Position numbers and translations under genes: made by a program. From contig NZ_LT593747.1 of assembly GCF_900089075.1 (NCBI RefSeq), positions 1 to 64,000 of the forward strand: DNA of 64,000 bases, given 5' to 3'. Positions 73-16,305 of this stretch are shown piece after piece. Origin of the DNA: Vaginella massiliensis (GTDB lineage: Bacteria > Bacteroidota > Bacteroidia > Flavobacteriales > Weeksellaceae). The first letter of the stretch is position 1; each line of letters opens with the position of its first letter. A model generated the notes under the pieces. The model was not told the origin of the DNA. It made no database searches and was given only the letters and a program-made list of their open reading frames with translations.

Positions 73-249
73 TCAACAACGATTAAGAATCAATCAATCA
101 AAATCAAACAAACACAGCTAAGTGCTAGGCGTTGTTAATCTTTCTTGTGTAAGTAAAAAAGCGAAATCAAAAAACCGAAAAAAACTGTTAACCTATAGCA
201 TCGACCAGTAGAAGTCAAAAAAAATACGCTTAGAGAAGCGTACAATCTT

Positions 250-357
<108 letters not shown>

Positions 358-492: not shown

Positions 493-1143
493 TCAACCTC
501 TTACCCCAAATATTGCACTTCCGATTCTTACCATTGTGCTTCCTTCTTCTATGGCGAGGTGATAATCGCCACTCATCCCCATCGATAAGATTTCTAAATC
601 GTTATAATAGACTTTAAGTCGATCAAAATTGGATTTTAAGTTGCTGAATTCTTTTCGAATTTGATTTTCATCTTCGGTAAAAGTAGCCATTCCCATCAGT
701 CCAACAATTTTTACGTTGGGTAGGTTTTTGATTTCGTTTGCAAGAATGTTTTCGATTTCATCGGCATTCAAACCAAATTTTGTGTCTTCCTCTGCAATGT
801 ATTGTTGCAAAAGACAAGGAATAGTTCGGTTGTGTTTGGCAGCCTGTTTGTTTATTTCTTTCAGAAGTTTTAGGCTATCAACGCCATGTATTAGCGACAC
901 AAATTCTGCCATATATTTCACCTTGTTGGTCTGCACATGACCAATCATATGCCACTGTATATCTTTGGGTAGAACGTCGTATTTCTCTACCATTTCTTGA
1001 ATTTTATTCTCCCCAAAAATTCGTTGTCCTGCGTCGTAGGCTTCTTGTATGGTCGCTGCTGATTTCGTTTTGGATACCGCAACCAGTTGTACTTGTGCTG
1101 GTAATTGATTTAATATTTGTTCTAAATTATCTTTGATCGACAT
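493..1143 (-). CDS. YggS/PLPBP family PLP-binding protein
   Basis: This 216-residue protein belongs to the YggS/PROSC family, which binds pyridoxal 5'-phosphate and keeps cellular B6 and amino acid pools balanced; it is not a known catalyst. The PLP lysine is expected at K25 in the segment VAVSKTKSAA, followed by the family motif FGENKIQEM, and the C-terminus has the typical GSTMVRIGSAIFGVR phosphate-binding end. The length is normal. It is the last gene of a minus-strand run behind serC, serA and a DUF1015 gene, 3 bp after the latter. Both serC upstream and this protein depend on PLP, so the linkage is sensible. Confidence 0.93.
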   Translation of the reverse strand: MSIKDNLEQILNQLPAQVQLVAVSKTKSAATIQEAYDAGQRIFGENKIQEMVEKYDVLPKDIQWHMIGHVQTNKVKYMAEFVSLIHGVDSLKLLKEINKQAAKHNRTIPCLLQQYIAEEDTKFGLNADEIENILANEIKNLPNVKIVGLMGMATFTEDENQIRKEFSNLKSNFDRLKVYYNDLEILSMGMSGDYHLAIEEGSTMVRIGSAIFGVRG

Positions 1144-1146
1144 TTC

Positions 1147-2391
1147 TTAATCTTTTAGGTCAAAAATTGCAAATCCGCTCAACGGTTTTGGTTCGATGTA
1201 GGTGCTTTTTGGCGGCATAGTAAGATTCATATCGGCTATCAATTGTAAATCGTTGACACTCACTGGGTAGAAAGAAAATGCCACTTTAGCTTTGCCCTGA
1301 TCCACTTTGTTTTTCAGCAATTCTACTCCGCGTATATCGCCCGTTCCTCTTTGGTAGAGGATACGTTTGTCATTCCTAGAATCGGTAATGTTGAAGATAG
1401 GTTGCAGAATGGTTTGTTCGAAAATATAAGTGTCTAATTCTCTAAGCCCCTCTTCGGTCAGTGCATTATTTTTTACGTATAAATTGTAAAATTTTCCATC
1501 GAGGTACATCACGATATGATGTTTTTTGTTCGGATAGATTGGTTGCTCATCTCTTTCGATAACATCGAAATTTTCTTCCAATTTATTGAAAAATTCTTCG
1601 TTACTATACCCATTGAGATCGGTGATCATTCGATTATAATCTTTGATGATGAGATCGTTGTTCGAGACCAGCATCGCCAAGGTATAATGGAAGCTTTCGT
1701 TGCCCATTGCTTCGTCTCCCACCTGCGTTTCGATTGATTTGGTGTATTTCTCCGAGCTTTCCATTCGGTGATGACCATCGGCAATATAAAGACTTTCTAA
1801 ATTCGATATTGATTCTTTTATTTGGCTCAATATAAGGCGTTTATCTACCTTCCACAACATATGTAAGGCACCGTTTTCTTCTTGAATTTTCAGTGTTGGC
1901 GTTTTCTTGATTTCGTTATCGACCAACAAATCTATGCGTTGGGTAGGCTTGTAAGTCAACAAAACTGGCTCTGCATGAAAGTGCGTGTTCAACAAATAGT
2001 CGGTAAACATGTCTACGCGATCTTGCAGGGTTTGTTCGTGTTTTTTGATTTTATTGTTGCGATAATCCTTTATATTGACCAATCCTAATAATCCTTTGGT
2101 GGTGATGCCGTTGGGTTTGATCAATTGATAGATATAAATCGATGATTTGTCTCGAGCGATTACCTTGTTCGACAGGTCTTGCTCTAGATTTTCTCTTACT
2201 TTTTTGTAACGTGTTTCGTGATCGATGCTATCGTCCCACGTTGGTTGGATGATGTGCAAGAACGAATGAGGCCTTGTTTTGATGTACTCTTGGATTTGTT
2301 CTTTGGAATAATGGTCTACATTTTTGGTAACAAAATCCTGAGCGGTCTCTTTGTTCGGTCTTAATCCGCGGAATGGTAGGAAATTTGGCAT
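1147..2391 (-). CDS. DUF1015 family protein
   Basis: This 414-residue protein belongs to the DUF1015 family (HTH-like, COG4198), which has no settled biochemical role. The diagnostic motif IADGHHRME is visible at about residue 204. There is no signal peptide or membrane segment, so it should be cytosolic. Its gene starts 5 bp after serA and ends 3 bp before yggS, a tight operon. DUF1015 genes often sit beside serA and serC in Bacteroidota and clostridia, which suggests a link to serine metabolism; that is inference from context. Confidence 0.9.
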   Translation of the reverse strand: MPNFLPFRGLRPNKETAQDFVTKNVDHYSKEQIQEYIKTRPHSFLHIIQPTWDDSIDHETRYKKVRENLEQDLSNKVIARDKSSIYIYQLIKPNGITTKGLLGLVNIKDYRNNKIKKHEQTLQDRVDMFTDYLLNTHFHAEPVLLTYKPTQRIDLLVDNEIKKTPTLKIQEENGALHMLWKVDKRLILSQIKESISNLESLYIADGHHRMESSEKYTKSIETQVGDEAMGNESFHYTLAMLVSNNDLIIKDYNRMITDLNGYSNEEFFNKLEENFDVIERDEQPIYPNKKHHIVMYLDGKFYNLYVKNNALTEEGLRELDTYIFEQTILQPIFNITDSRNDKRILYQRGTGDIRGVELLKNKVDQGKAKVAFSFYPVSVNDLQLIADMNLTMPPKSTYIEPKPLSGFAIFDLKD

Positions 2392-2396
2392 CTTAT

Positions 2397-3347
2397 TTAT
2401 TTTTGATAAAATTCTATAATCTGAGACGCCAATTCTGTTCCGATTCTATCTTGTGCTTCTTGGGTAGATCCTGCAATATGCGGACTCAGTGAAAGGTTTT
2501 GGTTCATGAGCAATCCCATTTCAGGAGTTGGTTCGTTTTCGAATACATCCAAAGCAGCACCCAAAACTTTTCCTTCTTCAATTGCATCAACCAAAGCTTT
2601 TTCGTCTACCACACCACCACGAGAGGTGTTGATGATGACCACGCCATCTTTCATTCGGGCAATTTCGTCTTTCCCAATGATGTAACTCTTTTGCGAAGGA
2701 ACGTGAATTGTGATATAATTCGAATTTTCTATCACGTCTTCTAAGGTGGTAGACGTGATTTCAAAATTTAATTTTTGCCCATCATAGAAATTTAGCTCGA
2801 TAGTTTTGGTTACGGGTTCTATATTGAAGACTTTTACGCTCATCCCCAATCCTAATGCGATTTTGACTACTTCGATACCAATGCGTCCAAAACCAATTAC
2901 ACCCAATGTTTTTCCTCTCAATTCAAATGCATTTGCATAGGCTTTTTTCAAACCTTTGAAGTTAGAATCACCCTCCAATGGCATTGCTCTATTGGATTGG
3001 TGCAAATTGCGAACAATGCTCAGCAAATGTGCGAACACAAACTCTGCAACCGAAATAGACGAAGACGCCGGCGTATTGATGACCAAAATGCCTTTGTTTT
3101 GTGCATATTCTACATCGATATTATCCATTCCAACGCCACCACGCCCGATAATTTTCAGGTTGGTTTTGTCAATTAAATCCTGACGCACCTTGGTCGCAGA
3201 ACGCACCAACAAAACTTCGATGTCGTTTTTGTTGATATAATTTGCCAATTGTTCTTGTGCTACGGTTGTGGTATCTACCGTAAATCCTTTTATTTCTAAA
3301 GCTGTTTGACCCGATTTTGAAATTCCGTCGTTCGCTAATATTTTCAT
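2397..3347 (-). CDS. serA: D-3-phosphoglycerate dehydrogenase (short form)
   Basis: A 316-residue D-2-hydroxyacid dehydrogenase that should oxidise 3-phosphoglycerate to 3-phosphohydroxypyruvate with NAD, the first step of serine biosynthesis. The Rossmann motif GVIGFGRIGIEV lies near residue 150, the catalytic Arg is in INTSRGGVVDE, and the catalytic His is in LSPHIAGST. No C-terminal ACT domain is present, so it is the short form without serine feedback inhibition. The gene lies 75 bp downstream of serC on the same strand, which supports the SerA assignment over other 2-hydroxyacid dehydrogenases. Confidence 0.9.
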   Translation of the reverse strand: MKILANDGISKSGQTALEIKGFTVDTTTVAQEQLANYINKNDIEVLLVRSATKVRQDLIDKTNLKIIGRGGVGMDNIDVEYAQNKGILVINTPASSSISVAEFVFAHLLSIVRNLHQSNRAMPLEGDSNFKGLKKAYANAFELRGKTLGVIGFGRIGIEVVKIALGLGMSVKVFNIEPVTKTIELNFYDGQKLNFEITSTTLEDVIENSNYITIHVPSQKSYIIGKDEIARMKDGVVIINTSRGGVVDEKALVDAIEEGKVLGAALDVFENEPTPEMGLLMNQNLSLSPHIAGSTQEAQDRIGTELASQIIEFYQK

Positions 3348-3422: not shown

Positions 3423-4493
3423 TTATCCAAATTTTTGCTCGAATTGTTTCATTACTTCTACCAAAACCTGTACAGATTCTAGTGGTAATGCGTTGTACAT
3501 AGAGGCTCGATATCCGCCAACATCGCGATGTCCAGCTAACGAGACAATTCCGGCTTCTTTCAACATGACATCAAAATCTGCTTTCAGTTCTTCGTTGTTC
3601 AAGACAAAAGTTGCGTTCATTTGCGAACGGTCTTCTACGGCTGCAGTTCCAGTAAACAATGCATTTCGATCGATTTCAGAATACATTGTTTCTGCTTTTG
3701 CAGTATTTATTTTCGCAATAGCGTCTACGCCACCTTGTTCTTTCAACCATTGTAGATTCAGCATCACCCCATAGATGGCAATTACAGGCCAGGTGTTGAA
3801 TGAAGATTCTTTTTTGATGTGCACCTCATAATTCAGATAATCTGGAATGTTGCGACCTGTTTTGCCTAATAAGTCTTTTTGGACTATGGCTACAGCAGAA
3901 CCAGCAGGTCCCATATTTTTTTGAGCTCCAGCATAGATTAAACCAAATTTTGATACGTCGACTTTTTTCGATAAAATATCAGAAGACATATCGCAAACAA
4001 GCGGAACTTCGGTCGAAGGAAACGCTTTCATCTGCGTACCAAAGATTGTGTTGTTCGAAGTGCAATGGAAATAATCTGCATCGGTTGGAATCTGATAGTC
4101 TTTTGGAATGTAGTTATAATTTTTGTCTTTCGACGAGGCTACAACTTCGATTTCACCAAATCGCTTGGCTTCTTTTATAGCATTCTCTGCCCATTTTCCG
4201 GTTTGTAGGTAAGCTGCTTTTCCTCCCTCTTTCAAGAAATTCAACGCCACTACCGGAAATTGCAACGAAGCACCGCCCTGCATAAAAACGACGTCGTGCG
4301 ATTCTGGTACATTCATCAACTCTTTTACCAAAGCTCTTGCGGTATCGATGATTTCTACCGCATCTTTTCTACGGTGTGATATTTCTAATATCGAGGTGCC
4401 TGAGTTGTTGAAATCTATACAGGCAGCCGCCATTTTATCGAAAACAACTTGCGGTAGGATACAAGGTCCTGCAGAGAAATTGTGAATTTTCAT
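3423..4493 (-). CDS. serC: phosphoserine aminotransferase
   Basis: This class V aminotransferase converts 3-phosphohydroxypyruvate and glutamate to O-phospho-L-serine. The start at 4493 gives MKIHNFSAGPCILP, the conserved SerC N-terminus; an upstream in-frame extension to 4574 would add 27 unconserved residues. The PLP lysine lies in YAGAQKNMGPAG and the C-terminus has GHRDVGGYRAS, both typical. The product is about 356 residues, normal for SerC. It leads the serC-serA-DUF1015-yggS run. A TAnnTTTG box sits about 43 bp upstream, between this gene and the terminator behind the CapB-like gene. Confidence 0.95.
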   Translation of the reverse strand: MKIHNFSAGPCILPQVVFDKMAAACIDFNNSGTSILEISHRRKDAVEIIDTARALVKELMNVPESHDVVFMQGGASLQFPVVALNFLKEGGKAAYLQTGKWAENAIKEAKRFGEIEVVASSKDKNYNYIPKDYQIPTDADYFHCTSNNTIFGTQMKAFPSTEVPLVCDMSSDILSKKVDVSKFGLIYAGAQKNMGPAGSAVAIVQKDLLGKTGRNIPDYLNYEVHIKKESSFNTWPVIAIYGVMLNLQWLKEQGGVDAIAKINTAKAETMYSEIDRNALFTGTAAVEDRSQMNATFVLNNEELKADFDVMLKEAGIVSLAGHRDVGGYRASMYNALPLESVQVLVEVMKQFEQKFG

Positions 4494-4535
4494 GGTGTTG
4501 TTTATGTTTTTCTGATTGTTTAATGAATTGTGATT

Positions 4536-4543
4536 CAAATATA
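4536..4543 (-). promoter_or_regulatory. candidate -7 box of the serC operon
   Basis: On the minus strand this reads TATATTTG, a full match to the Bacteroidota TAnnTTTG element, 42 bp before the serC start. I see no good -33 TTG at the usual 19-bp spacing. It lies downstream of the capB terminator and would give serC-serA its own transcript. Confidence 0.5.
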
Positions 4544-4590
4544 ATGAATTCTCATGCGTAATGAAAGCGAGCATGGCTGAATTAATTCAC

Positions 4591-4619
4591 AAAAAGAAGC
4601 CTTCAATTGTTGAAGGCTT
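4591..4619 (-). terminator. terminator after the CapB-like gene
   Basis: On the minus strand a 10-bp stem (AAGCCTTCAA / TTGAAGGCTT) with a 3-nt loop is followed by CTTTTT. It starts about 20 bp after the stop codon of the acyltransferase gene and separates it from serC. Confidence 0.85.
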
Positions 4620-4640
4620 TATTGTTTTGATATTTTAATA

Positions 4641-5900
4641 TTAGTATTGAATAAAATCGATGTTCAATTCGTCGGCTTTGCGTTTGTAATAGCCTTCTTC
4701 TAATTTTCCACGGATTTCGGCAAACGAATTCAGCGTGTATTCGATGTGCTCATCTTCGTGTGCTGCGGTCGGAATTATTCTAAAAATAATCATTCCTTTC
4801 GGGATTACAGGATAGACCACAACCGAGACAAAAATTCCATATTCTTCACGCATTTCTTTTGCCAAAAGTGTTGCTTCGATTGGTGAACCATTCAAGACGA
4901 TTGGCGTAACGCAAGTGTTAGAACCTCCGATGTCGAAGCCGCGTTCTTTCAAACCGTTTTGGATTTTGTTTACGTTGTGCCATAGTTTTTCTTTCAGTTC
5001 GGGTTTAGAACGTAAGAGTTCCAATCTTTTCAATCCTCCGATTACCATTGGCATTGTAAGCGATTTTGCAAAAATCTGTGAGCGTAGATTGTATTTCAAG
5101 ATTCTGATGATATCTTTATCACCAGCAATAAACGCTCCAAAACCAGCCATAGATTTGGCAAAGGTAGAGAAATAGATATCGATTTTGTCTTGGCATCCTT
5201 GCTCTTCGCCTGCACCTGCACCAGTTTTACCCAAGGTTCCGAATCCGTGTGCGTCGTCTACCAAAAGGCGGAATTTGTATTCGTCTTTGTATGCCGCAAT
5301 TTCTTTCAAGATCCCTTGTTTACCAGTCATCCCGAAAACTCCTTCTGTGATTACCAAAACGCCTCCGTTTTGCTTATCTGCTAAAGTTTTTGCTCGTTTG
5401 ATGATTTTCTCGAAACTCTCGATGTTGTTGTGTTGGAAAATGAAGCGTTTTCCGAAGTGTAAACGTACGCCATCTACGATGCAAGCATGACACTCGGCGT
5501 CGTAAACAATCACATCATTTTTCGATACCAAAGCATCTATGGTAGAAACCATTCCTTGGTAACCAAAGTTCATCAGGTAAGCTGCTTCTTTTTGCACGAA
5601 TTCTGCTAATTCGTTTTCCAACTGCGCATGATAGTCTGTTTGCCCAGACATTGCTCGAGCTCCCATTGGATAAGCCATACCGTATTCTGCGGCTGCATCT
5701 GCGTCTGCTTTTCTCACTTCCGGATGGTTGGCTAGACCTAAGTAGTTGTTGATAGACCATGTAATTACCTTTTTACCTTGGAATTCCATTACTGGTCCAA
5801 TTTCTCCCTTCAGTTGCGGAAAAACGTAGTACCCTTCACCATAATCAGCAAATTGTCCTAATGGCCCTGGGTTTTGTCTTAATCGTTCAAAAATATCCAT
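4641..5900 (-). CDS. probable cysteate-C-fatty acyltransferase (alpha-oxoamine synthase family)
   Basis: A 419-residue PLP enzyme of the alpha-oxoamine synthase family (serine palmitoyltransferase, KBL, BioF). The PLP lysine is K249 in FSTFAKSMAGFGAF and the D-x-A-H motif VDDAHGFG is at 215-218. The N-terminus (INNYLGLANHPEV, GMAYPMGARAMSG) resembles the Bacteroidota SPT-like clade. Directly upstream is a CBS-like synthase, and serC and serA lie downstream. In Capnocytophaga the CapA/CapB pair makes the sulfonolipid base capnine: CapA makes cysteate from O-phosphoserine and sulfite, and CapB condenses it with a branched acyl-CoA. The context fits CapB. The alternative is an ordinary serine palmitoyltransferase for sphingolipids; the family call is sure, the substrate is inferred. 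Confidence 0.75.
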   Translation of the reverse strand: MDIFERLRQNPGPLGQFADYGEGYYVFPQLKGEIGPVMEFQGKKVITWSINNYLGLANHPEVRKADADAAAEYGMAYPMGARAMSGQTDYHAQLENELAEFVQKEAAYLMNFGYQGMVSTIDALVSKNDVIVYDAECHACIVDGVRLHFGKRFIFQHNNIESFEKIIKRAKTLADKQNGGVLVITEGVFGMTGKQGILKEIAAYKDEYKFRLLVDDAHGFGTLGKTGAGAGEEQGCQDKIDIYFSTFAKSMAGFGAFIAGDKDIIRILKYNLRSQIFAKSLTMPMVIGGLKRLELLRSKPELKEKLWHNVNKIQNGLKERGFDIGGSNTCVTPIVLNGSPIEATLLAKEMREEYGIFVSVVVYPVIPKGMIIFRIIPTAAHEDEHIEYTLNSFAEIRGKLEEGYYKRKADELNIDFIQY

Positions 5901-5926
5901 TTCTTTAAGTTGTTTTATAATGGAAA

Positions 5927-5955
5927 AAAGTAGACAATTGCGTTTTGTCTACTTT
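5927..5955 (-). terminator. hairpin terminator between the CapA- and CapB-like genes
   Basis: On the minus strand an 11-bp stem (AAAGTAGACAA / TTGTCTACTTT) with a 7-nt loop runs straight into a T stretch. It lies about 35 bp after the CapA-like stop codon. It may end part of the transcript before the acyltransferase gene. Confidence 0.8.
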
Positions 5956-5989
5956 ATTTTCCGTTATTATGCGTTGTTCAATATAATCA

Positions 5990-7027
5990 TTATTTTATAA
6001 AATCTACAGTGGCACGAGATTCCAATCCGTTCAGTTTACTGTTGCAGAATCCTTGCTCTTGCATCCATTCGTCGCTGTAGACCTTGGTAATGTAACGCGA
6101 GCCGTGATCTGGGAAAAGAATTACAACATGCGAATTTTCATCGAACATGCCTTGTTCTGCTAATTGTTTATAGGCTTGTGTTGCTGCTCCTGAAGTGTAA
6201 CCTGGCATGATTCCTTCTTTCAGGGCTATTTCTCTTGTGCGGTACGCAGCCTCTTCGTCGGTAACTTTCACAAATTGATCGATGATCGAAAAGTCTAAAG
6301 CTCCTGGAACCAAATTTTTCCCCATCCCTTCGATGCGATAGGGATAGATTTCGTTCGGGTCTACCTCTTGTGTTTCGTGATATTTTTTCAAGATCGAGCC
6401 GTAGGCATCAACTCCAATGATTTTCACATTTGGGTTTTGTTCTTTCAAAAATTGGGCAGATCCAGATAGCGTTCCGCCTGTACCACAACAGCCGATCAGA
6501 TGCGTTATTTTACCTTCGGTTTGCTCCCAAATTTCTGGACCAGTTGTCAAATAATGCGCTTCTGTATTGGCAAGGTTGAAATATTGATTGATGTAAATCG
6601 AGTTGGGCGTTTCGGCTGCGATGCGTTTAGCTACTTCATAATACGACCGAGGATCGTCTGCAGGCACGTTTGCCGGGCATACGAATACCTTAGCACCTAA
6701 AGCTTTGAGGTATGAAATTTTCTCTGCCTTGGTCTTGTCAGATACCGCTAAAATACACTTATAGCCTTTTACTATACTGACCATTGCTACACTAAATCCT
6801 GTATTACCAGATGTAGTTTCAACTATGGTAGAACCAGGTTTCAATAAACCTTTTTTTTCTGCTTCTTCTATGATATGTAAAGCAATCCTATCTTTTGTTG
6901 AATGGCCCGGATTATAACATTCTAATTTGGCATAAGCCTCACCTGGAATGTTTTGGTTAATATTGTTTAGTCGAACTAATGGTGTGTTACCAACAAGTTC
7001 CAAAACATTGTTATACTTACCAGTCAT
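5990..7027 (-). CDS. probable cysteate synthase (CBS/cysteine synthase family)
   Basis: A 345-residue fold-type II PLP enzyme. The PLP lysine is K45 in [11 protein letters not shown] and the phosphate-binding loop motif ETTSGNTG and the glycine-rich [10 protein letters not shown] follow, all as in cystathionine beta-synthase and cysteine synthase. There is no CBS regulatory domain. The reported capnine enzyme CapA is closely related to cystathionine beta-synthase and uses O-phosphoserine plus sulfite to form cysteate. The neighbouring SPT-like gene and the serC-serA genes, which supply O-phosphoserine, favour that role here. A plain cysteine synthase or CBS cannot be excluded by sequence alone. 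A TAAATTTG box 27 bp upstream (minus strand, 7054-7061) is a possible -7 element. Confidence 0.72.
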
Positions 7028-7167
7028 TTCAAATTATTGTTTTATACAAACTGCAAATTTAAGAACTTTTTAATAATCTTAATCCTTTTTTTTATCAGTT
7101 CAAGCTTTTATAATTTTAATAATGTTGCTTATGAGCCCATTAATTTAATGAAATTATTTTAATAATA

Positions 7168-8310
7168 TTAAATATTTTCGTACAAATGTTTCAAAATTGC
7201 TCGATCTGCTTCGGATAGTCGCAATCCTCTGCGTTGCATCATGCGATCGGCAGCCTCGTAAGCCTTGTCCAACTGAAAGGTCGGAGAATCTTTTTTTCCG
7301 CCCCAAGTAAACGATTTTATGTTGGTTGGCGGGAAACCAGACTCGAAAACATTGGCACAAACGCCAACCACTGTTCCAGTATTGAATTGGGTATTGATCG
7401 CCGATTTTGAATGATCGCCCATGAGCAAACCACAAAATTGCAAACCAGTATCGATATGCCGATTTTGCGAATAATTCCAAACTTTCACCGAAGAATAATT
7501 GTTTTTTAGGTTCGAGTTGTTGGTGTCTGCGCCCAAATTGCACCATTCGCCAATCACCGAATTCCCCAAGAATCCATCGTGTCCTTTATTGGAATAACCC
7601 ATCAAAATGGCATTGTTCACCTCGCCGCCAACTTTACAGTGTGGGCCAATGGTTGTAGCAGAATAAATCTTAGCACCCATATTCAATTTGGCGTGGTCAC
7701 AAAGTGCCAGACTTCCTCTGACCAAAGCACCTTCCATGATTTCGGCGTCTTTCCCAATGTAGATCGGACCGTTTTTGGCGTTGAGCGTAGCAAATTCTAC
7801 AACCGCTCCTTCTTCTATAAAAATATTTTCGGGACAAAGTACCTGATTGGTAGAAGAAATGGGGTGAGATTCTCGCCCATTTGTCAGTAATTCGAAATCG
7901 AATTTGATCGCCATATCGTTGTAGGTAAACAAATCCCACGGATATTGAATGTGCGTAATATCGCCTTCGAAATCGATTTTTTCTGTGTAATCATCCAGCG
8001 ATTTACCTCTTACCGCAACGAGTTTTTCTTGCCAATACAGCGCTTCTTGCGGTTTCAGGTCGAATACGGTGGCTACCAACGCATGCGTTACAAAATAGCA
8101 GGGATTCACAAATAGATTATCCTCTGCCAGATTGTGAGGAAATTTTACTTGTAAATAGTCTTGGGTTAAATATTCGACAGTTGAATTCGACAGTTTTTCC
8201 CAACGTTCCCCAAAGGTCAAAATTCCCATACGCAGCTCGCCTACAGGCTTGGTAAACGTCAATGGATAAAGTTGCTCACGCTCTACACCATCAAATAAAA
8301 TGATCTTCAT
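7168..8310 (-). CDS. GlmU-like putative sugar nucleotidyltransferase
   Basis: This 380-residue protein has an N-terminal nucleotidyltransferase-like part (starting MKIILFDGVEREQLYPLTFT) and a C-terminal left-handed beta-helix of hexapeptide repeats (for example FIEEGAVVEFATLN, IYIGKDAEIMEGALV, SAINTQFNTGTVVG). The usual GxGTRM nucleotide loop of GlmU is not preserved at the N-terminus, so the substrate and even catalysis are uncertain. Bacteroidota carry this GlmU-family paralogue widely. Its start region is divergent from aroB; a TACTTTTG box (minus strand, 8333-8340) may be its -7 element. Confidence 0.8.
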   Translation of the reverse strand: MKIILFDGVEREQLYPLTFTKPVGELRMGILTFGERWEKLSNSTVEYLTQDYLQVKFPHNLAEDNLFVNPCYFVTHALVATVFDLKPQEALYWQEKLVAVRGKSLDDYTEKIDFEGDITHIQYPWDLFTYNDMAIKFDFELLTNGRESHPISSTNQVLCPENIFIEEGAVVEFATLNAKNGPIYIGKDAEIMEGALVRGSLALCDHAKLNMGAKIYSATTIGPHCKVGGEVNNAILMGYSNKGHDGFLGNSVIGEWCNLGADTNNSNLKNNYSSVKVWNYSQNRHIDTGLQFCGLLMGDHSKSAINTQFNTGTVVGVCANVFESGFPPTNIKSFTWGGKKDSPTFQLDKAYEAADRMMQRRGLRLSEADRAILKHLYENI

Positions 8311-9985: not shown

Positions 9986-11356
9986 TTTATCGAGCATGAA
10001 AATCAATTTCTTGTTCACAAACTCTTCTATTCCAGCCTTTGATAGTTCTCTTCCGTAACCCGATTTTTTGGTTCCGCCGAAAGGCAATTCTTCGCTCGAA
10101 GAAACTTGTTTGTTGATGTAGACCATGCCCGATTCTATTTTTCGAGCAATCGCCTGGGCTTTTTCCAAATCTTCGGTGTAGATCGAGGCGCCTAAGCCGT
10201 AGCTGGTGTCATTTGCTAATTTTATGGCATCTTCTATCTCACTGAATTTGAACAAACAGACCACCGGGCCAAAAATTTCTTCGTCGTAGGCTGGCGAGCC
10301 AGGCTTGATATTTTCTAATACGGTGGGCGCAAGAAAATACCCTTTGTCGTACAATTTTTTTCCGCCAATGCAAACTTCGACACCTTTGTTTTTCGATTGT
10401 TCAATCTGGTCGATCAAGGTTTCCAAGGCAGCTTTAGAGCTTACGGGCCCCATCTGGGTATCTTCCTCCATCGGATTTCCTACCTTCATCGATTCGATGT
10501 AGTCGATCAAGCGTTTTTTATAATTGTCGTAGATCGACTCGTGAACAATGATGCGTTTCGATGAAGTACATGCTTGCCCTGCATTGCGCAGTCGGCCGTT
10601 GATGGTTCCGCTCATCACTTTCTCCATATCAGCATCTTCGAGTACGAGCATCGGGTCTGATCCGCCTAATTCTAAAACCGATTTTTTGATGTGTTTCCCA
10701 GCGATTTCTGCAACCGAAGCGCCAGCTGCATCAGATCCTGTGAGAGATACGCCTTTGATGATTGGATTTTCGATGATTTGCCCAACCTCTTTGCCCGCTA
10801 TCAAGATGTTTTGGTAAAGTCCTTTGGGAGCATTCGCCGCCGCAAACATCTCGTCGAAAGCTTTGCCACATCTCGGAATGTTGGACGCGGTTTTCATGAT
10901 AATGGTGTTGCCTGCCATGATGTTTGGAGCTACAAATCGAGCGATCTGTGAGAATGGGAAATTCCAAGGCATCACACCCAAGAGGACGCCAATAGGCTCA
11001 GAAACCACGTAGGCGGTTCCTTTTTCGGTTGCGACATCGTAGGCTTGTAAAAATTGTTCGGCATGCTGGGCATAATACTCGAAAATATTGGCAGAATACC
11101 GTACTTCGATGATGGATTCTTTGAGTGGTTTTCCCATTTCGCGCGTGATGAGTTCGGCGTATTGGTCTAGGTTTTGTCGCATGGCATTGGCAACGCCTAG
11201 TGCTACTTTTTTACGCTCTGCCATCGAGGTCCAACGCCATTGCTGAAAACATTGCTCTGCGTCTTCTAAAAATTGTTGAATTGCCGCAGGCGAATGAGAT
11301 TCGAAACTGATTTCTATTTCTTCGGTATAAGGATTAATGGATTGAATTGTTGCCAT
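9983..11356 (-). CDS. NAD(P)-dependent aldehyde dehydrogenase, succinate-semialdehyde type
   Basis: A 457-residue aldehyde dehydrogenase. The catalytic cysteine is in NAGQACTSSKRI and the general-base glutamate in LELGGSDP; the C-terminus has GGTKKSGYGRELS. These match the succinate-semialdehyde dehydrogenase (GabD/Sad) subgroup, which makes succinate, but the exact aldehyde cannot be read from sequence. The start at 11356 (MATIQSINPYTEE) is preferred; the frame is open for 10 more residues to 11386 without conserved character. It stands alone and converges on msrB. Confidence 0.88.
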   Translation of the reverse strand: MATIQSINPYTEEIEISFESHSPAAIQQFLEDAEQCFQQWRWTSMAERKKVALGVANAMRQNLDQYAELITREMGKPLKESIIEVRYSANIFEYYAQHAEQFLQAYDVATEKGTAYVVSEPIGVLLGVMPWNFPFSQIARFVAPNIMAGNTIIMKTASNIPRCGKAFDEMFAAANAPKGLYQNILIAGKEVGQIIENPIIKGVSLTGSDAAGASVAEIAGKHIKKSVLELGGSDPMLVLEDADMEKVMSGTINGRLRNAGQACTSSKRIIVHESIYDNYKKRLIDYIESMKVGNPMEEDTQMGPVSSKAALETLIDQIEQSKNKGVEVCIGGKKLYDKGYFLAPTVLENIKPGSPAYDEEIFGPVVCLFKFSEIEDAIKLANDTSYGLGASIYTEDLEKAQAIARKIESGMVYINKQVSSSEELPFGGTKKSGYGRELSKAGIEEFVNKKLIFMLDK

Positions 11357-11500
11357 TGTTGCTATAAAAATAATATTGTACAGCAAAGTTCAGAAATTAA
11401 AATTACTTAGAAGTTATGTTTGAAGAGAGATTTAGAAAAGTCGTTGATAATTCTATTGTTATCAAAATGTTATGAATGCGTTTTAGTATGGTATAGGTGT

Positions 11501-11529
11501 TTTTGATGTAGGAATATATAGTAAATTTG
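11501..11529 (+). promoter_or_regulatory. promoter of the type IX-secreted protein gene
   Basis: TTTTG at 11501-11505 and TAAATTTG at 11522-11529 form a Bacteroidota-type promoter with a 16-bp spacer, slightly shorter than the usual 19. The -7 box lies 33 bp before the ATG at 11563. Confidence 0.6.
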
Positions 11530-11562
11530 TACCGTAAAATAATAAACTAAAATTTGAAATTC

Positions 11563-14343
11563 ATGAGAAAATTTTACATGATCAATTGGATGATTCTCCT
11601 GATGGGATTGATCTCCACGACCGCATTTGGGCAGGGTGTAGCCTATGAAGGAAATTTTAATAATCAAGAAGGAGCAGGTGGTTCCTACAAGGAAAATTTA
11701 GTAATAAAATTAGAAGGGCAAAATTGGTTTGCCTCTTCAGCTTATTATAGTTCTGAAGAATTCAGACTTGGTCATAATAAAACTTCTACTATACCAAGTA
11801 AATTTGGTTTATCAAGTGAAGGTTCTTCAATCGAAATGCAATGGGATATTGAAAATGTTAAAGCCTTCAAGATTGGTGCAGGTCGTACCTATGGTACCGT
11901 GGATAATTGGCATATATTCGAGTCTACTGATGCAGGGTTATCATGGAAATCTGTATCTACTGGTAAAGACTTAACAGCAATTCAATATACTGCTTCAACA
12001 CCTAAGACTGCAAGATATGCATTAGTAATTACAGGATCAAAAAATCCTCGATTGGTATTGACTACAGTTCAAATTCTCGATCAAGTTGTCAACCAACCGC
12101 CGGTGATTACTACAGAGTCTACGACTATAAATGGTGTGTTTGGTGGTAGTTTGTCTTTTGCAGTAGAAGCAATCAACGACCCAACGTCTTGGACGGCTAC
12201 CAATTTGCCAACGGGTATCACCTTCGACAATGGTGTTTTCTCTGGAACATACCAAGCAGTAGGGAACTTTACCACCACTGTAACTGCTACGAATGCTTAC
12301 GGTTCAGACAGCAAAGATTTCACTTTTGTGGTGAGTGAGCAACCAGAAGCTTCAGGTTGTTTCGAAGAAAGATTCGATGACATCACTGCAGGTAATAACA
12401 CTACTACCTCTGGATCTAGTTCAGCTTGGGGAGGAAATGTAAATTTCCCAATAACTAATGCAGCTTATCAAGCAGGTGGAGCGGTGAAATTAGGAACTGG
12501 TAGTAAAACAGGAAGTATCGAGTCTAAGGTATTGAGTGATATAGCTGGTGATGTAAAGGTTACTTTTGATGTAAAAGGTTGGACCAACATAGAAGGAGAA
12601 ATGATAGTTACCTTAGGTGGGCAATCGCAAACCGTAGCATACGAAGCTAAAATAGCTGATAACTTCGAGACTGTTACCCTTGACTTCTCTAATGTAGCAG
12701 CAAATTCTACATTAAAATTTGAAACCACAGCAAAACGTGCTTTCTTAGACAATATCCTGGTATGTAACTCAAATCCTCTGGTAACAGAAACCATTTGGGA
12801 CGGAACTTCATGGTCTAATGGTGAACCAAACAGCAACGTAAATGCGATATTAGAAGCATCTTACGAAGAAGATTTGACTGCAAAAACCCTTACAGTAGTA
12901 GAATCTGCAGAGGTATTGGTACCAGCAGGCGTTACTTACAATGTTGTAGGAGATGTTAACGTAGAAGGATCGTTGACTTTTGCAGACGGAGCTTATTTGA
13001 TACAACAAGACGATGCAGCGGTAAATACAGGTAACATCGCTTTCTTGAAACAAGTAAACAATCTATTCCGTATAGATGTTGTATTATTCTCATCTCCAGT
13101 AGCTGAGCAAAAAGTACAAGAAGTTGCACCATTGACTCATCAAAATGATTTCTTCGTTTACAACGAGGCAAATGATGATTGGGACAATATTCCAGCTGCA
13201 CAAGTTGCAAACAAAACAATCGGAGTTGCAGAGTCGGTATTGGTTCGTGCACCACGTACAGCATTATACTACCAAGGTAACGAATCTTCACCTACCACAA
13301 CAGATCATACATTCAAAGGAGCTATAAACAACGGTACCATCACCAAATCGGTAACCAAAAACGGGTCAGGTTACAATTCGGTAGGAAATCCTTACGGATC
13401 TGCGCTTAACTTAGACGCTTTCTTTGCCGATAACGATAATGTAAATTCGGTTCATATCTGGACGCATCAGTACCACGTACCAGCTGCAGGAGGAAAATAT
13501 GCAGCAAGTAACTGGGTAGCGAGAAACAGAACAGGATCTTCTGTATCTAGTACCCCATTATTGAATGCAGACGATCTATCGGTTGGTCAAGGATTCTTTG
13601 TACAAGTAGAAGGTGCAGGTACTATCGAATTCAACAATGGTCAACGTTCGAACGCTGCAACGACTTTACTAAAAGCGAAAGCCAACAGATATTGGTTAGG
13701 TTTAGCGAAAGAAGACGTAAAATTGAACACCATGTTGATCGGTTATGTAGACGGTGCTACAAACGGATTCGACGCTGGTTACGATGCTAAAAACGTAGAC
13801 AACGCACCATCGTTCATCTACTCAATCATCGAAAATCAATACTACGTAATCGATGGTAGAGCTGCAGATTTCTCACAAGACGATGTTGTAAAGTTGGTAT
13901 TCAAAGCAGAAGAAGCGACTACTTATACTATTGATTTAGCTGCTGCAGAAGGAATTTTTGCTGACGATCAAAAAGTATATTTACACGACAAATTGACTCA
14001 AACGGTTCATGATTTGGCAACGCCATACACTTTCGAATCGTTGGCTGGTGAATTTGCAGATCGTTTCGAGGTAATTTACACCAACAGAAACTTAGGTGTT
14101 AACGACCTTACAAACGCTAAAGATGTGGTGATCTATACCAACAACAACACTGTAATGGTAGAATCTAAAAACGCTGAAATCGTTTCTGTCGAAGTATTCG
14201 ATGTACAAGGGCGAAAAGTATTGGCAGACTACCATGTAAACACAAAAACTTATCAAGTTGCTACAGCTGCCAAAGGAGTTTTGGTTGTAAAAGTAGAAAC
14301 AGCTAATGGTAAAGTAGAAACTAAAAAAGTAATTAGAAAATAA
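11563..14343 (+). CDS. large secreted protein with type IX (Por) sorting domain
   Basis: This protein of about 926 residues starts with a signal peptide (MRKFYMINWMILLMGLIS, cleavage after AFGQ). The mature part has a discoidin-like N-terminal third, an Ig-like putative cadherin-type domain (about 180-255, motif PTGITFDNGVFSGT), a second beta-rich domain, a long unclassified region, and a C-terminal domain of about 70 residues ending VLVVKVETANGKVETKKVIRK-like, typical of the T9SS type A signal. It is therefore exported and probably surface-bound. Function is unknown; I see no catalytic motif. The ATG at 11563 is preferred over the in-frame TTG at 11554. A small PID-CTERM-like gene follows 62 bp later. 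Confidence 0.88.
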   Translation: MRKFYMINWMILLMGLISTTAFGQGVAYEGNFNNQEGAGGSYKENLVIKLEGQNWFASSAYYSSEEFRLGHNKTSTIPSKFGLSSEGSSIEMQWDIENVKAFKIGAGRTYGTVDNWHIFESTDAGLSWKSVSTGKDLTAIQYTASTPKTARYALVITGSKNPRLVLTTVQILDQVVNQPPVITTESTTINGVFGGSLSFAVEAINDPTSWTATNLPTGITFDNGVFSGTYQAVGNFTTTVTATNAYGSDSKDFTFVVSEQPEASGCFEERFDDITAGNNTTTSGSSSAWGGNVNFPITNAAYQAGGAVKLGTGSKTGSIESKVLSDIAGDVKVTFDVKGWTNIEGEMIVTLGGQSQTVAYEAKIADNFETVTLDFSNVAANSTLKFETTAKRAFLDNILVCNSNPLVTETIWDGTSWSNGEPNSNVNAILEASYEEDLTAKTLTVVESAEVLVPAGVTYNVVGDVNVEGSLTFADGAYLIQQDDAAVNTGNIAFLKQVNNLFRIDVVLFSSPVAEQKVQEVAPLTHQNDFFVYNEANDDWDNIPAAQVANKTIGVAESVLVRAPRTALYYQGNESSPTTTDHTFKGAINNGTITKSVTKNGSGYNSVGNPYGSALNLDAFFADNDNVNSVHIWTHQYHVPAAGGKYAASNWVARNRTGSSVSSTPLLNADDLSVGQGFFVQVEGAGTIEFNNGQRSNAATTLLKAKANRYWLGLAKEDVKLNTMLIGYVDGATNGFDAGYDAKNVDNAPSFIYSIIENQYYVIDGRAADFSQDDVVKLVFKAEEATTYTIDLAAAEGIFADDQKVYLHDKLTQTVHDLATPYTFESLAGEFADRFEVIYTNRNLGVNDLTNAKDVVIYTNNNTVMVESKNAEIVSVEVFDVQGRKVLADYHVNTKTYQVATAAKGVLVVKVETANGKVETKKVIRK

Positions 14344-14704: not shown

Positions 14705-14775
14705 ATAAATAATGGATTGATTATTAGGTGGTTAATATAGAATTCACTATATTTAACTACTTAATTTTCAGCGAA

Positions 14776-16305
14776 ATGAACTATAGAATTAAAGAATATA
14801 ACCAATCCCAAAACTGGTTATTTCCACCTTCGATAGAAGAATTAATTCCGACTAATCATCCAGTAAGAATCGTAAACAACGTAGTTGAGAAGATAGACTT
14901 AAAACCTCTTTTAGAAACTTACAGTCGGGAAGGTCATCCTAGTTATCATCCTAAAATGATGCTCAAAGTGATGGTTTACGCTTATATGGACAATATTTAT
15001 TCCAGTAGAAAGATCGAAAAAGCCCTCAATGAGAACATAAACTTTATGTGGCTTTCTGGTAGAGAAAGCATCGACCATAATACGATAGCCCGATTTCGAA
15101 GCAATAAGTTAAAAGCCGTATTCAAAGACATCTTCAAACAAGTGGTATTGCTTTTGGCAGAAGAAAAATTAGTGAGTCTCAAACGAGTTTATACAGACGG
15201 CACCAAAATAGAATCGGTAGCTGGAAGATACACCTTTGTCTGGGGAAATTCCATCAAGACCAATCGGGAGAAAATGATCAAACAATTAGAGGATATGTGG
15301 CAATACGCGCAGTGCGTTGCTGATGAAGAAGACCAAGATCCCGAGCCACCGGAGTTCAAAAAACTTGATCCTGAAAAAGTCCAACAAGCTGCAGATAAAA
15401 TCAACCGAATCCTAAAAGAAAAGTCTGACGATCCAAAGAAAAAAGCCAAATCCCGTTACATCCAAAAGAATTTTGCGCCAAACTTAAAGAAATACCAAGA
15501 ACAAGAAAAGTTACTACAAGAACGCAACTCCTACAGCAAAACCGATCCCGATGCGACCTTTATGCGCATGAAGGACGACCACATGCAGAACGGACAATTA
15601 AAACCCGGCTACAATGCACAAATCAGCACCGAAAACCAAATCATCGTCAACTATACCTTACATCAAGACACCAACGACATTCATACTTTAAAACCTCATT
15701 TAGAAAACCATAAAAAACTCTACAATGAGCTTCCCGAAGAACTCACCGCAGATGCAGGATACGGAAGTGAAGAAAATTACGAACTTTTGGAGGACAAAGC
15801 AATCAAAGCCTTTGTAAAGTTCAACACCTTTGACCAAGAACAAGGTAAATCAAAGAAAAGAAAAAATCCCAAACCCTTTGAACGAGACTCACTCTATTAT
15901 AATGAAGCGCAAGATTTTTATGTATGCCCGATGGGACAACGTATGGAAAAGCGCGGTGAGCGAAAAGTCCAAACAAAGTCAGGATATAAGCAAACCTATA
16001 GTTGTTATACCGCTAAAAACTGCAATGGATGTCCGCTCAGAAGCCAGTGCTTCAAGGGGAAAAACAACAGGACAGTAGAAAGGAACCATAAATTAGAATA
16101 CCACAAACAAAAAGCAAGAGAACTTCTCACATCCGATATCGGAGAAATAAGAAGAAAACAAAGAACTGCTGATGTCGAACCTACATTTGCCCAACTCAAA
16201 CACAACCGAAACTTCAAAAGATTTACCCTAAAAGGAATTGAAAAAGTGGAATTAGAGTTCGGATTGCATGCTTTAGCTCATAATCTGAAAAAGATGAGTG
16301 CGTAA
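14776..16305 (+). CDS. IS1182 family transposase
   Basis: A transposase of about 509 residues, full length for the family. The N-terminal DUF772-type domain (PTNHPVRIVNNVVEKIDL, IDHNTIARFR) is followed by a DDE catalytic domain: first Asp in YTDGTKIES, second in ADAGYGSEENYELLE, and a late Glu in the DVEPTFAQLKHNRNFKRF segment. A cysteine-rich insertion (CPMGQ, CYTAKNCNGCPLRSQC) is typical of IS1182. The ATG at 14776 gives the conserved start MNYRIKEYNQSQNWLFPP; an in-frame start at 14728 is less likely. No frameshift or stop is seen, so it may be active. Confidence 0.93.
   Translation: MNYRIKEYNQSQNWLFPPSIEELIPTNHPVRIVNNVVEKIDLKPLLETYSREGHPSYHPKMMLKVMVYAYMDNIYSSRKIEKALNENINFMWLSGRESIDHNTIARFRSNKLKAVFKDIFKQVVLLLAEEKLVSLKRVYTDGTKIESVAGRYTFVWGNSIKTNREKMIKQLEDMWQYAQCVADEEDQDPEPPEFKKLDPEKVQQAADKINRILKEKSDDPKKKAKSRYIQKNFAPNLKKYQEQEKLLQERNSYSKTDPDATFMRMKDDHMQNGQLKPGYNAQISTENQIIVNYTLHQDTNDIHTLKPHLENHKKLYNELPEELTADAGYGSEENYELLEDKAIKAFVKFNTFDQEQGKSKKRKNPKPFERDSLYYNEAQDFYVCPMGQRMEKRGERKVQTKSGYKQTYSCYTAKNCNGCPLRSQCFKGKNNRTVERNHKLEYHKQKARELLTSDIGEIRRKQRTADVEPTFAQLKHNRNFKRFTLKGIEKVELEFGLHALAHNLKKMSA

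Follow-up and report, generated by a model that had tools for sequence, protein, structure and literature searches.

The first 64,000 nucleotides of contig NZ_LT593747.1 (C9) of Vaginella massiliensis (Flavobacteriales, Weeksellaceae), hereafter the window, carry on the minus strand and in transcription order the genes glmU, capA, capB, serC, serA, DUF1015 and yggS. The genome comprises 2.43 Mb in nine contigs and is given as 100% complete. This order raises the question of whether genes of sulfonolipid synthesis (capA, capB) and of serine synthesis (serC, serA) form a dedicated branch leading from 3-phosphoglycerate to a sulfonolipid, as the initial annotation had proposed from the order alone. 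That annotation described a protein resembling cystathionine beta-synthase (CBS), a protein resembling serine palmitoyltransferase (SPT), serC and serA as consecutive, and the four are indeed open genes on the minus strand in this order. The interval assigned to them, 3423–7027, encloses capA, capB and serC and leaves serA (2397–3347) outside. The locus does not look like a new system; it appears to be a known sulfonolipid pathway that has an unusual neighbour. Our full account, to which we give a probability of roughly three in four, is that capA and capB are sulfonolipid genes next to an ordinary serC-serA pair, in an order inherited from one rearrangement and with separate transcription.

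CapA and CapB as predicted sulfonolipid enzymes

With the NCBIfam cysteate synthase model NF053679, the 345-aa product of capA reached 589.9 bits, compared with 379.1 bits on the CBS model, 211 bits lower, and 313 bits on the cysteine synthase (CysK) model. Its only domain is PALP, and no CBS domain was found; C-terminal CBS domains are typical of cystathionine beta-synthase, although not universal. The closest solved chain is 9k2p (497 bits), while the best CBS chain reached 284 bits. In a tree whose outgroups were CBS only, including neither a cysteine synthase nor an assayed CapA, the protein fell in a clade with support 100/98, outside of which stood the CBS of the same genome (L002), a protein with CBS domains. 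Its closest relatives come from Faecalibacter, Algoriella and Empedobacter (85–88% identical).

For CapB, the best solved matches were 28eh (628 bits), named cysteate-C-fatty acyltransferase, and 7u7h (564 bits), compared with 240 bits for the SPT 3a2b. From its residue numbering, 7u7h appears to be SulA of Alistipes finegoldii, an enzyme with the same fold and reaction class as CapB, which in PMC9304779 is distinguished from SPT by Lys281 in place of an alanine and prefers fatty acids bound to acyl carrier protein. The lysine of CapB that binds pyridoxal 5'-phosphate (PLP) is K249, and K279 aligns, as matched by hand, with SulA Lys281 and with the alanine of 3a2b. CapB grouped with 28eh and 7u7h at 100/99 support, apart from SPT and Kbl. 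No NCBIfam model was passed, in a result that contained no specific CapB model; the top row was glycine C-acetyltransferase (288.6 bits, cut-off 460), and the SPT model NF047600 failed as well (277.8 bits, cut-off 640). When the genome was searched with CapB, the sole other relative was L108, which lies outside the CapB clade and is a glycine C-acetyltransferase (680 bits, cut-off 493), and thus no SPT was found in this genome.

These results support the initial annotation in naming the CBS-like protein CapA, by family models, solved structures and the CBS-rooted tree, and the SPT-like protein CapB, by the 28eh and 7u7h scores relative to SPT, the tree and K279. The phylogenies that it had suggested place the two proteins with CapA and the cysteate acyltransferases and not with CBS or SPT. 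A CBS or cysteine synthase identity for CapA and an SPT identity for CapB were therefore rejected on model scores, solved structures and trees. The corresponding alternative, in which the first protein is a true CBS or cysteine synthase, the second an SPT or Kbl, and no sulfonolipid is made, draws on the membership of both proteins in those superfamilies, on a CapA score below the curated cut-off and on the NCBIfam result for CapB. Nevertheless, the scores, the trees and K279 speak against it, and a CBS and a glycine C-acetyltransferase are already present in the genome as distinct proteins, so that we consider this alternative very improbable.

Very probably, then, capA and capB are responsible for the early part of the synthesis of a sulfur-containing membrane lipid, as far as activities and product can be predicted from their sequences. 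We propose a scheme in which we infer the enzyme activities and the lipid product, as well as a single rearrangement and a separate transcription of serC-serA. CapA and CapB would act at the first two committed steps on the way to sulfonolipids (capnine/sulfobacin). The PLP enzyme CapA would convert O-phosphoserine and sulfite to cysteate, and CapB would condense cysteate with an activated fatty acid to 3-ketocapnine. A KdsR-like short-chain dehydrogenase/reductase (SDR) encoded elsewhere in the genome would probably reduce the latter. SerA and SerC would form O-phosphoserine from 3-phosphoglycerate by the ordinary single-copy pathway.

This pathway has known counterparts. PMC12927429 and PMC9304779 describe CapA and CapB of Capnocytophaga ochracea likewise as cysteate synthase and cysteate acyltransferase; their accessions are consecutive, and the genes are probably adjacent, as they are in the window, where serC-serA comes next. 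For Chryseobacterium gleum, which belongs to the same family of organisms, PMC11211663 also describes a cysteate synthase and a cysteate-C-fatty acyltransferase of the same pathway. The Chryseobacterium loci that we fetched have capA and capB adjacent as in the window, but no serC near them.

No reductase gene adjoins capA and capB in the window. On the other hand, the two loci L009 and L019, which share the order glmU, capA, capB with the window, carry an SDR gene between capA and capB (11142–11984 and 11097–11945, respectively), likely capC, the 3-ketocapnine reductase, and apparently of the Ornithobacterium type. The genome of the window has 14 SDR matches, of which L096 (C8:116639–117175) is nearest to these two proteins at about 30% identity. 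Among NCBIfam models it scores best with 3-ketodihydrosphingosine reductase, at 219 bits against a cut-off of 400. The search for a CapC-like reductase that the initial annotation had suggested thus yielded a candidate, elsewhere in the genome. Since no SPT was found, 3-ketocapnine is a plausible substrate of L096. According to PMC11211663, several unrelated-looking reductases are active per genome.

Gene order and intergenic signals

The serC-serA pair adjoins capA and capB in five of 80 capA loci (L005–L008 and L010) in addition to the window, several of the other 75 loci being truncated where their contigs end. In a set of 38 same-family genomes whose CapA exceeds 530 bits, CapA lies within 10 kb of DUF1015, used here as the marker of the ser block, only in the genome of the window, with the two on different contigs in 13 of the 38. 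The window and its five relatives have a nine-gene block in common, which in all five relatives also holds msrB and aroB, and glmU precedes capA in L005–L011 (except where it was not found) and in L019. We propose that a single rearrangement, in the common ancestor of this genome and of Empedobacter, Algoriella and Faecalibacter, placed serC-serA-DUF1015-yggS downstream of glmU-capA-capB, and that serC-serA adjoins capA and capB because this order was inherited. Given that msrB and aroB belong to the block too, one rearrangement and inheritance would explain the order without selection.

In all six genomes with the cap-ser order, the capB-serC gap holds a terminator-like hairpin of 10–16 pairs followed by TATATTTG, which lies at −45 to −50 before serC. 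Before capA, the consensus TAnnTTTG also occurs in all six, at −34 to −37. Within 150 nt upstream of serC it was seen in one of the 24 other genomes; for the full set of 30, shuffling expects 2.29. A single cap-ser operon would have neither terminator nor promoter between capB and serC; signals of both kinds were found, at the level of consensus. The simplest reading of a hairpin followed by TATATTTG is that serC-serA has its own transcript, and the terminator and separate promoter probably make the pair its own transcription unit.

The rival explanation is that capA-capB-serC-serA are regulated together as a single unit and form a dedicated branch that leads from 3-phosphoglycerate to the sulfonolipid. 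The four genes share a strand, the five relatives with this order all preserve it, and SerC yields the O-phosphoserine on which CapA acts. Sequence conservation could be read in the same direction, as CapB (91–94%), CapA (85–88%) and SerC (84–90%) are more alike between the window and these relatives than SerA (75–76%) or DUF1015 (60–64%); GlmU (62–64%) and AroB (55–56%) are likewise less alike. However, the hairpin and TATATTTG lie between capB and serC in every genome with this arrangement, and a hairpin stands even between capA and capB. Unrelated genes, namely msrB, aroB and glmU, have stayed in the block as well, only one clade shows the arrangement, and other genera with capA and capB have serC at another location. 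Together with a single-copy SerC and an absence of canonical SerB throughout most of the Flavobacteriales sampled, this leaves the dedicated branch proposed by the initial annotation without the support that it had drawn from gene order, and we regard it as quite unlikely.

A hairpin with a T-run was found in 58 of 70 capA-capB gaps, compared with one of 210 shuffled gaps, by a rule based on RNAfold. The 80 capA loci gave 71 such gaps after removal of seven in which no capB was seen and of L009 and L019, where the SDR intervenes; the 13-nt gap of L011 was then dropped for its length, leaving 70. A first rule with an ungapped stem had counted 33 of 71. The thresholds were set by us, and the second rule was chosen after imperfect stems had been seen in L005–L008. 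With a hairpin in 58 of 70 loci, even capA and capB may be unequally transcribed, and these consecutive pathway genes may be unequally expressed. The stem sequences of the capA-capB hairpins vary between genera. A general scan for sigma-70 promoters gave no excess over chance (21, with 20.4 expected), and one for terminators found 12 where 6.9 were expected (standard deviation 2.7).

Several points weigh against the account of sulfonolipid genes beside a separately transcribed serC-serA pair. CapA falls 10 bits below the curated NF053679 cut-off of 600, its closest solved chain 9k2p is titled a PLP-dependent protein and not a cysteate synthase, and its tree is limited by the outgroups named above. 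The consensus TAnnTTTG, the promoter element of Bacteroidota, would occur by chance in 2.29 of 30 upstream regions. The six cap-ser genomes are related and do not represent six independent cases, the shuffle control for hairpins covered the capA-capB gaps, and read-through could still join the capB and serC transcripts. Finally, the PAPS/APS (3'-phosphoadenosine 5'-phosphosulfate/adenosine 5'-phosphosulfate) reductase family PF01507 had no match in the genome, while 14 of 14 controls matched; CapA would need sulfite from another source, perhaps organosulfur compounds.

The shortfall of CapA on its model is not an argument against its function. The cut-off was passed in 39 of 196 genomes of the order, whereas all 38 same-family genomes with a CapA above 530 bits remained below 600, the CapA of the window being the highest of them. 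Two Chryseobacterium CapA proteins scored 544 and 537 bits, and a cysteate synthase of C. gleum, a member of that genus, had been identified earlier by the authors of PMC11211663, as they state there. We thus read the 600-bit cut-off as strict rather than as a defining trait of CapA.

The features of the locus are collected in Table 1. The gaps between genes measure 89 nt (capA-capB), 147 nt (capB-serC, from the conserved serC start), 75 nt (serC-serA), 5 nt (serA-DUF1015) and 3 nt (DUF1015-yggS). The longest open reading frame of serC begins at an ATG at 4574, which is probably too early a start, and the start common to its relatives (MKIHNF) lies at 4493. Just past yggS, a 5S rRNA gene occupies 249–356 (+), and a transposase gene with the domains DDE_Tnp_1_6 and DUF772 was found at 14728–16302 (+).

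Table 1. Genes and putative signals of the cap-ser locus, in transcription order (positions of the window)
Feature	Position	Strand	Basis
glmU-like (alt_bact_glmU), upstream neighbour of capA	7168..8310	-	TIGR03991 432.6 bits, cut-off 225.3
TAAATTTG, promoter-like element 34 nt before capA	7054..7061	-	consensus TAnnTTTG
capA, predicted cysteate synthase, 345 aa	5990..7027	-	NF053679 589.9 bits; tree
Terminator-like hairpin with T-run, capA-capB gap	5927..5955	-	11 pairs
capB, predicted cysteate acyltransferase, 419 aa	4641..5900	-	PDB 28eh 628 bits; alignments; tree
Terminator-like hairpin, capB-serC gap	4597..4619	-	10 pairs, then CTTTTTG
TATATTTG, promoter-like element 50 nt before serC	4536..4543	-	consensus TAnnTTTG
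serC, phosphoserine aminotransferase, 356 aa from conserved start	3423..4493	-	NF003764 462.9 bits, cut-off 253
serA-like 3-phosphoglycerate dehydrogenase, 316 aa, short form	2397..3347	-	best model TIGR01327 281.2 bits, below cut-off 454
DUF1015 protein, 414 aa, DGHHR motif	1147..2391	-	PF06245 281.7 bits
yggS-type PLP protein, last gene of block	493..1143	-	TIGR00044 206.3 bits, cut-off 106.25

Serine supply and DUF1015

That SerA and SerC make the O-phosphoserine needed by CapA, as the initial annotation stated, follows from the published pathway. SerC also serves vitamin B6 synthesis. Each of 30 selected genomes had one SerC match, so that this enzyme is shared with serine and vitamin B6 synthesis, and SerA lay within 1.5 kb of serC in all 30, with flanks of 1.5 kb considered.

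The initial annotation had also reported no serB, and this holds genome-wide for the canonical SerB: TIGR00338 gave four weak partial matches, the best of 27.6 bits (cut-off 144.15) in a Hydrolase_3 protein of the haloacid dehalogenase (HAD) type, in a search that did not extend to non-orthologous phosphoserine phosphatases. SerB above the cut-off was found in three of the 30 selected genomes (Apibacter and two Cloacibacterium), in 55 of 198 genomes of the phylum (57 with a match) and in 23 of 196 genomes of the order, including none of the 39 same-family genomes of the order sample, whether or not ser adjoins cap. Since 173 of the 196 order genomes lack canonical SerB, its absence is not peculiar to the cap-ser locus and was rejected as evidence for a dedicated branch. 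PMC9026213 likewise reports 450 gut genomes of diverse Firmicutes without any of four SerB types.

A further alternative concerns DUF1015, which could be an enzyme of the SerK/SbnI kind, exchanging phosphate between serine and O-phosphoserine and thereby filling the SerB gap or feeding CapA from serine. The gene starts 5 nt past serA, was found near serC-serA in 22 of the 30 genomes (1.5-kb flanks) and encodes a DGHHR motif invariant in 23 of 23 aligned members. PMC12704722 lists 'DU1015' among fusions of the ParB-CTPase fold and describes SerK and SbnI as free-serine kinases with a ParB fold, and PMC5120207 places archaeal serK close to serA and aminotransferase genes. Of the 196 genomes of the order, 131 contain DUF1015, and of the 198 of the phylum, 171 do. 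Within the order, a genome with one of SerB and DUF1015 tends to lack the other (8 genomes with both, 15 with SerB only, 123 with DUF1015 only and 50 with neither; p 0.0015, uncorrected for relatedness). The same tendency is seen in one family (f3; p 0.023), although the genomes are not independent and many of the 50 genomes with neither come from one family of very small genomes. In the phylum, by contrast, no exclusion was seen: DUF1015 is present in 51 of the 57 genomes that matched SerB and in 120 of the 141 that did not match (counted by hand); a plain replacement of SerB by DUF1015 thus agrees with the order and not with the phylum.

An AlphaFold model of DUF1015 from six close sequences had a mean pLDDT (predicted local distance difference test) of 44, comparison with PDB by sequence and profile gave no match, and ParBc_2 matched two of 23 members (best E 0.005). 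A scan of viral contigs for DUF1015 relatives returned 31 pattern matches, none of them a relative, and our literature search found no paper on a pyrophosphate-dependent serine kinase with phosphoserine. A kinase-like role for DUF1015 is a tentative and, overall, unlikely proposal. The wider version, in which DUF1015 closes the serine pathway and sets the phosphoserine pool in SerB-less Flavobacteriales, so that in this clade the block beside capA and capB would control how much phosphoserine reaches sulfonolipids, whether derived from 3-phosphoglycerate or from serine, appears to us a little more doubtful.

Implications for sulfonolipid synthesis

Our literature search found no paper joining sulfonolipids with serC and serA, which is not proof of their absence from print. 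Among the matches listed, judged by titles and the starts of abstracts, none tied sulfonolipids to Empedobacter, Faecalibacter or Algoriella, and several concerned Faecalibacterium instead. Gene order alone overstated the link of capA and capB to serine synthesis. Overall, these results predict sulfonolipids in a bacterium of the Faecalibacter/Empedobacter type and, since no SPT was found, a capnine-like lipid there should come from CapA and CapB.

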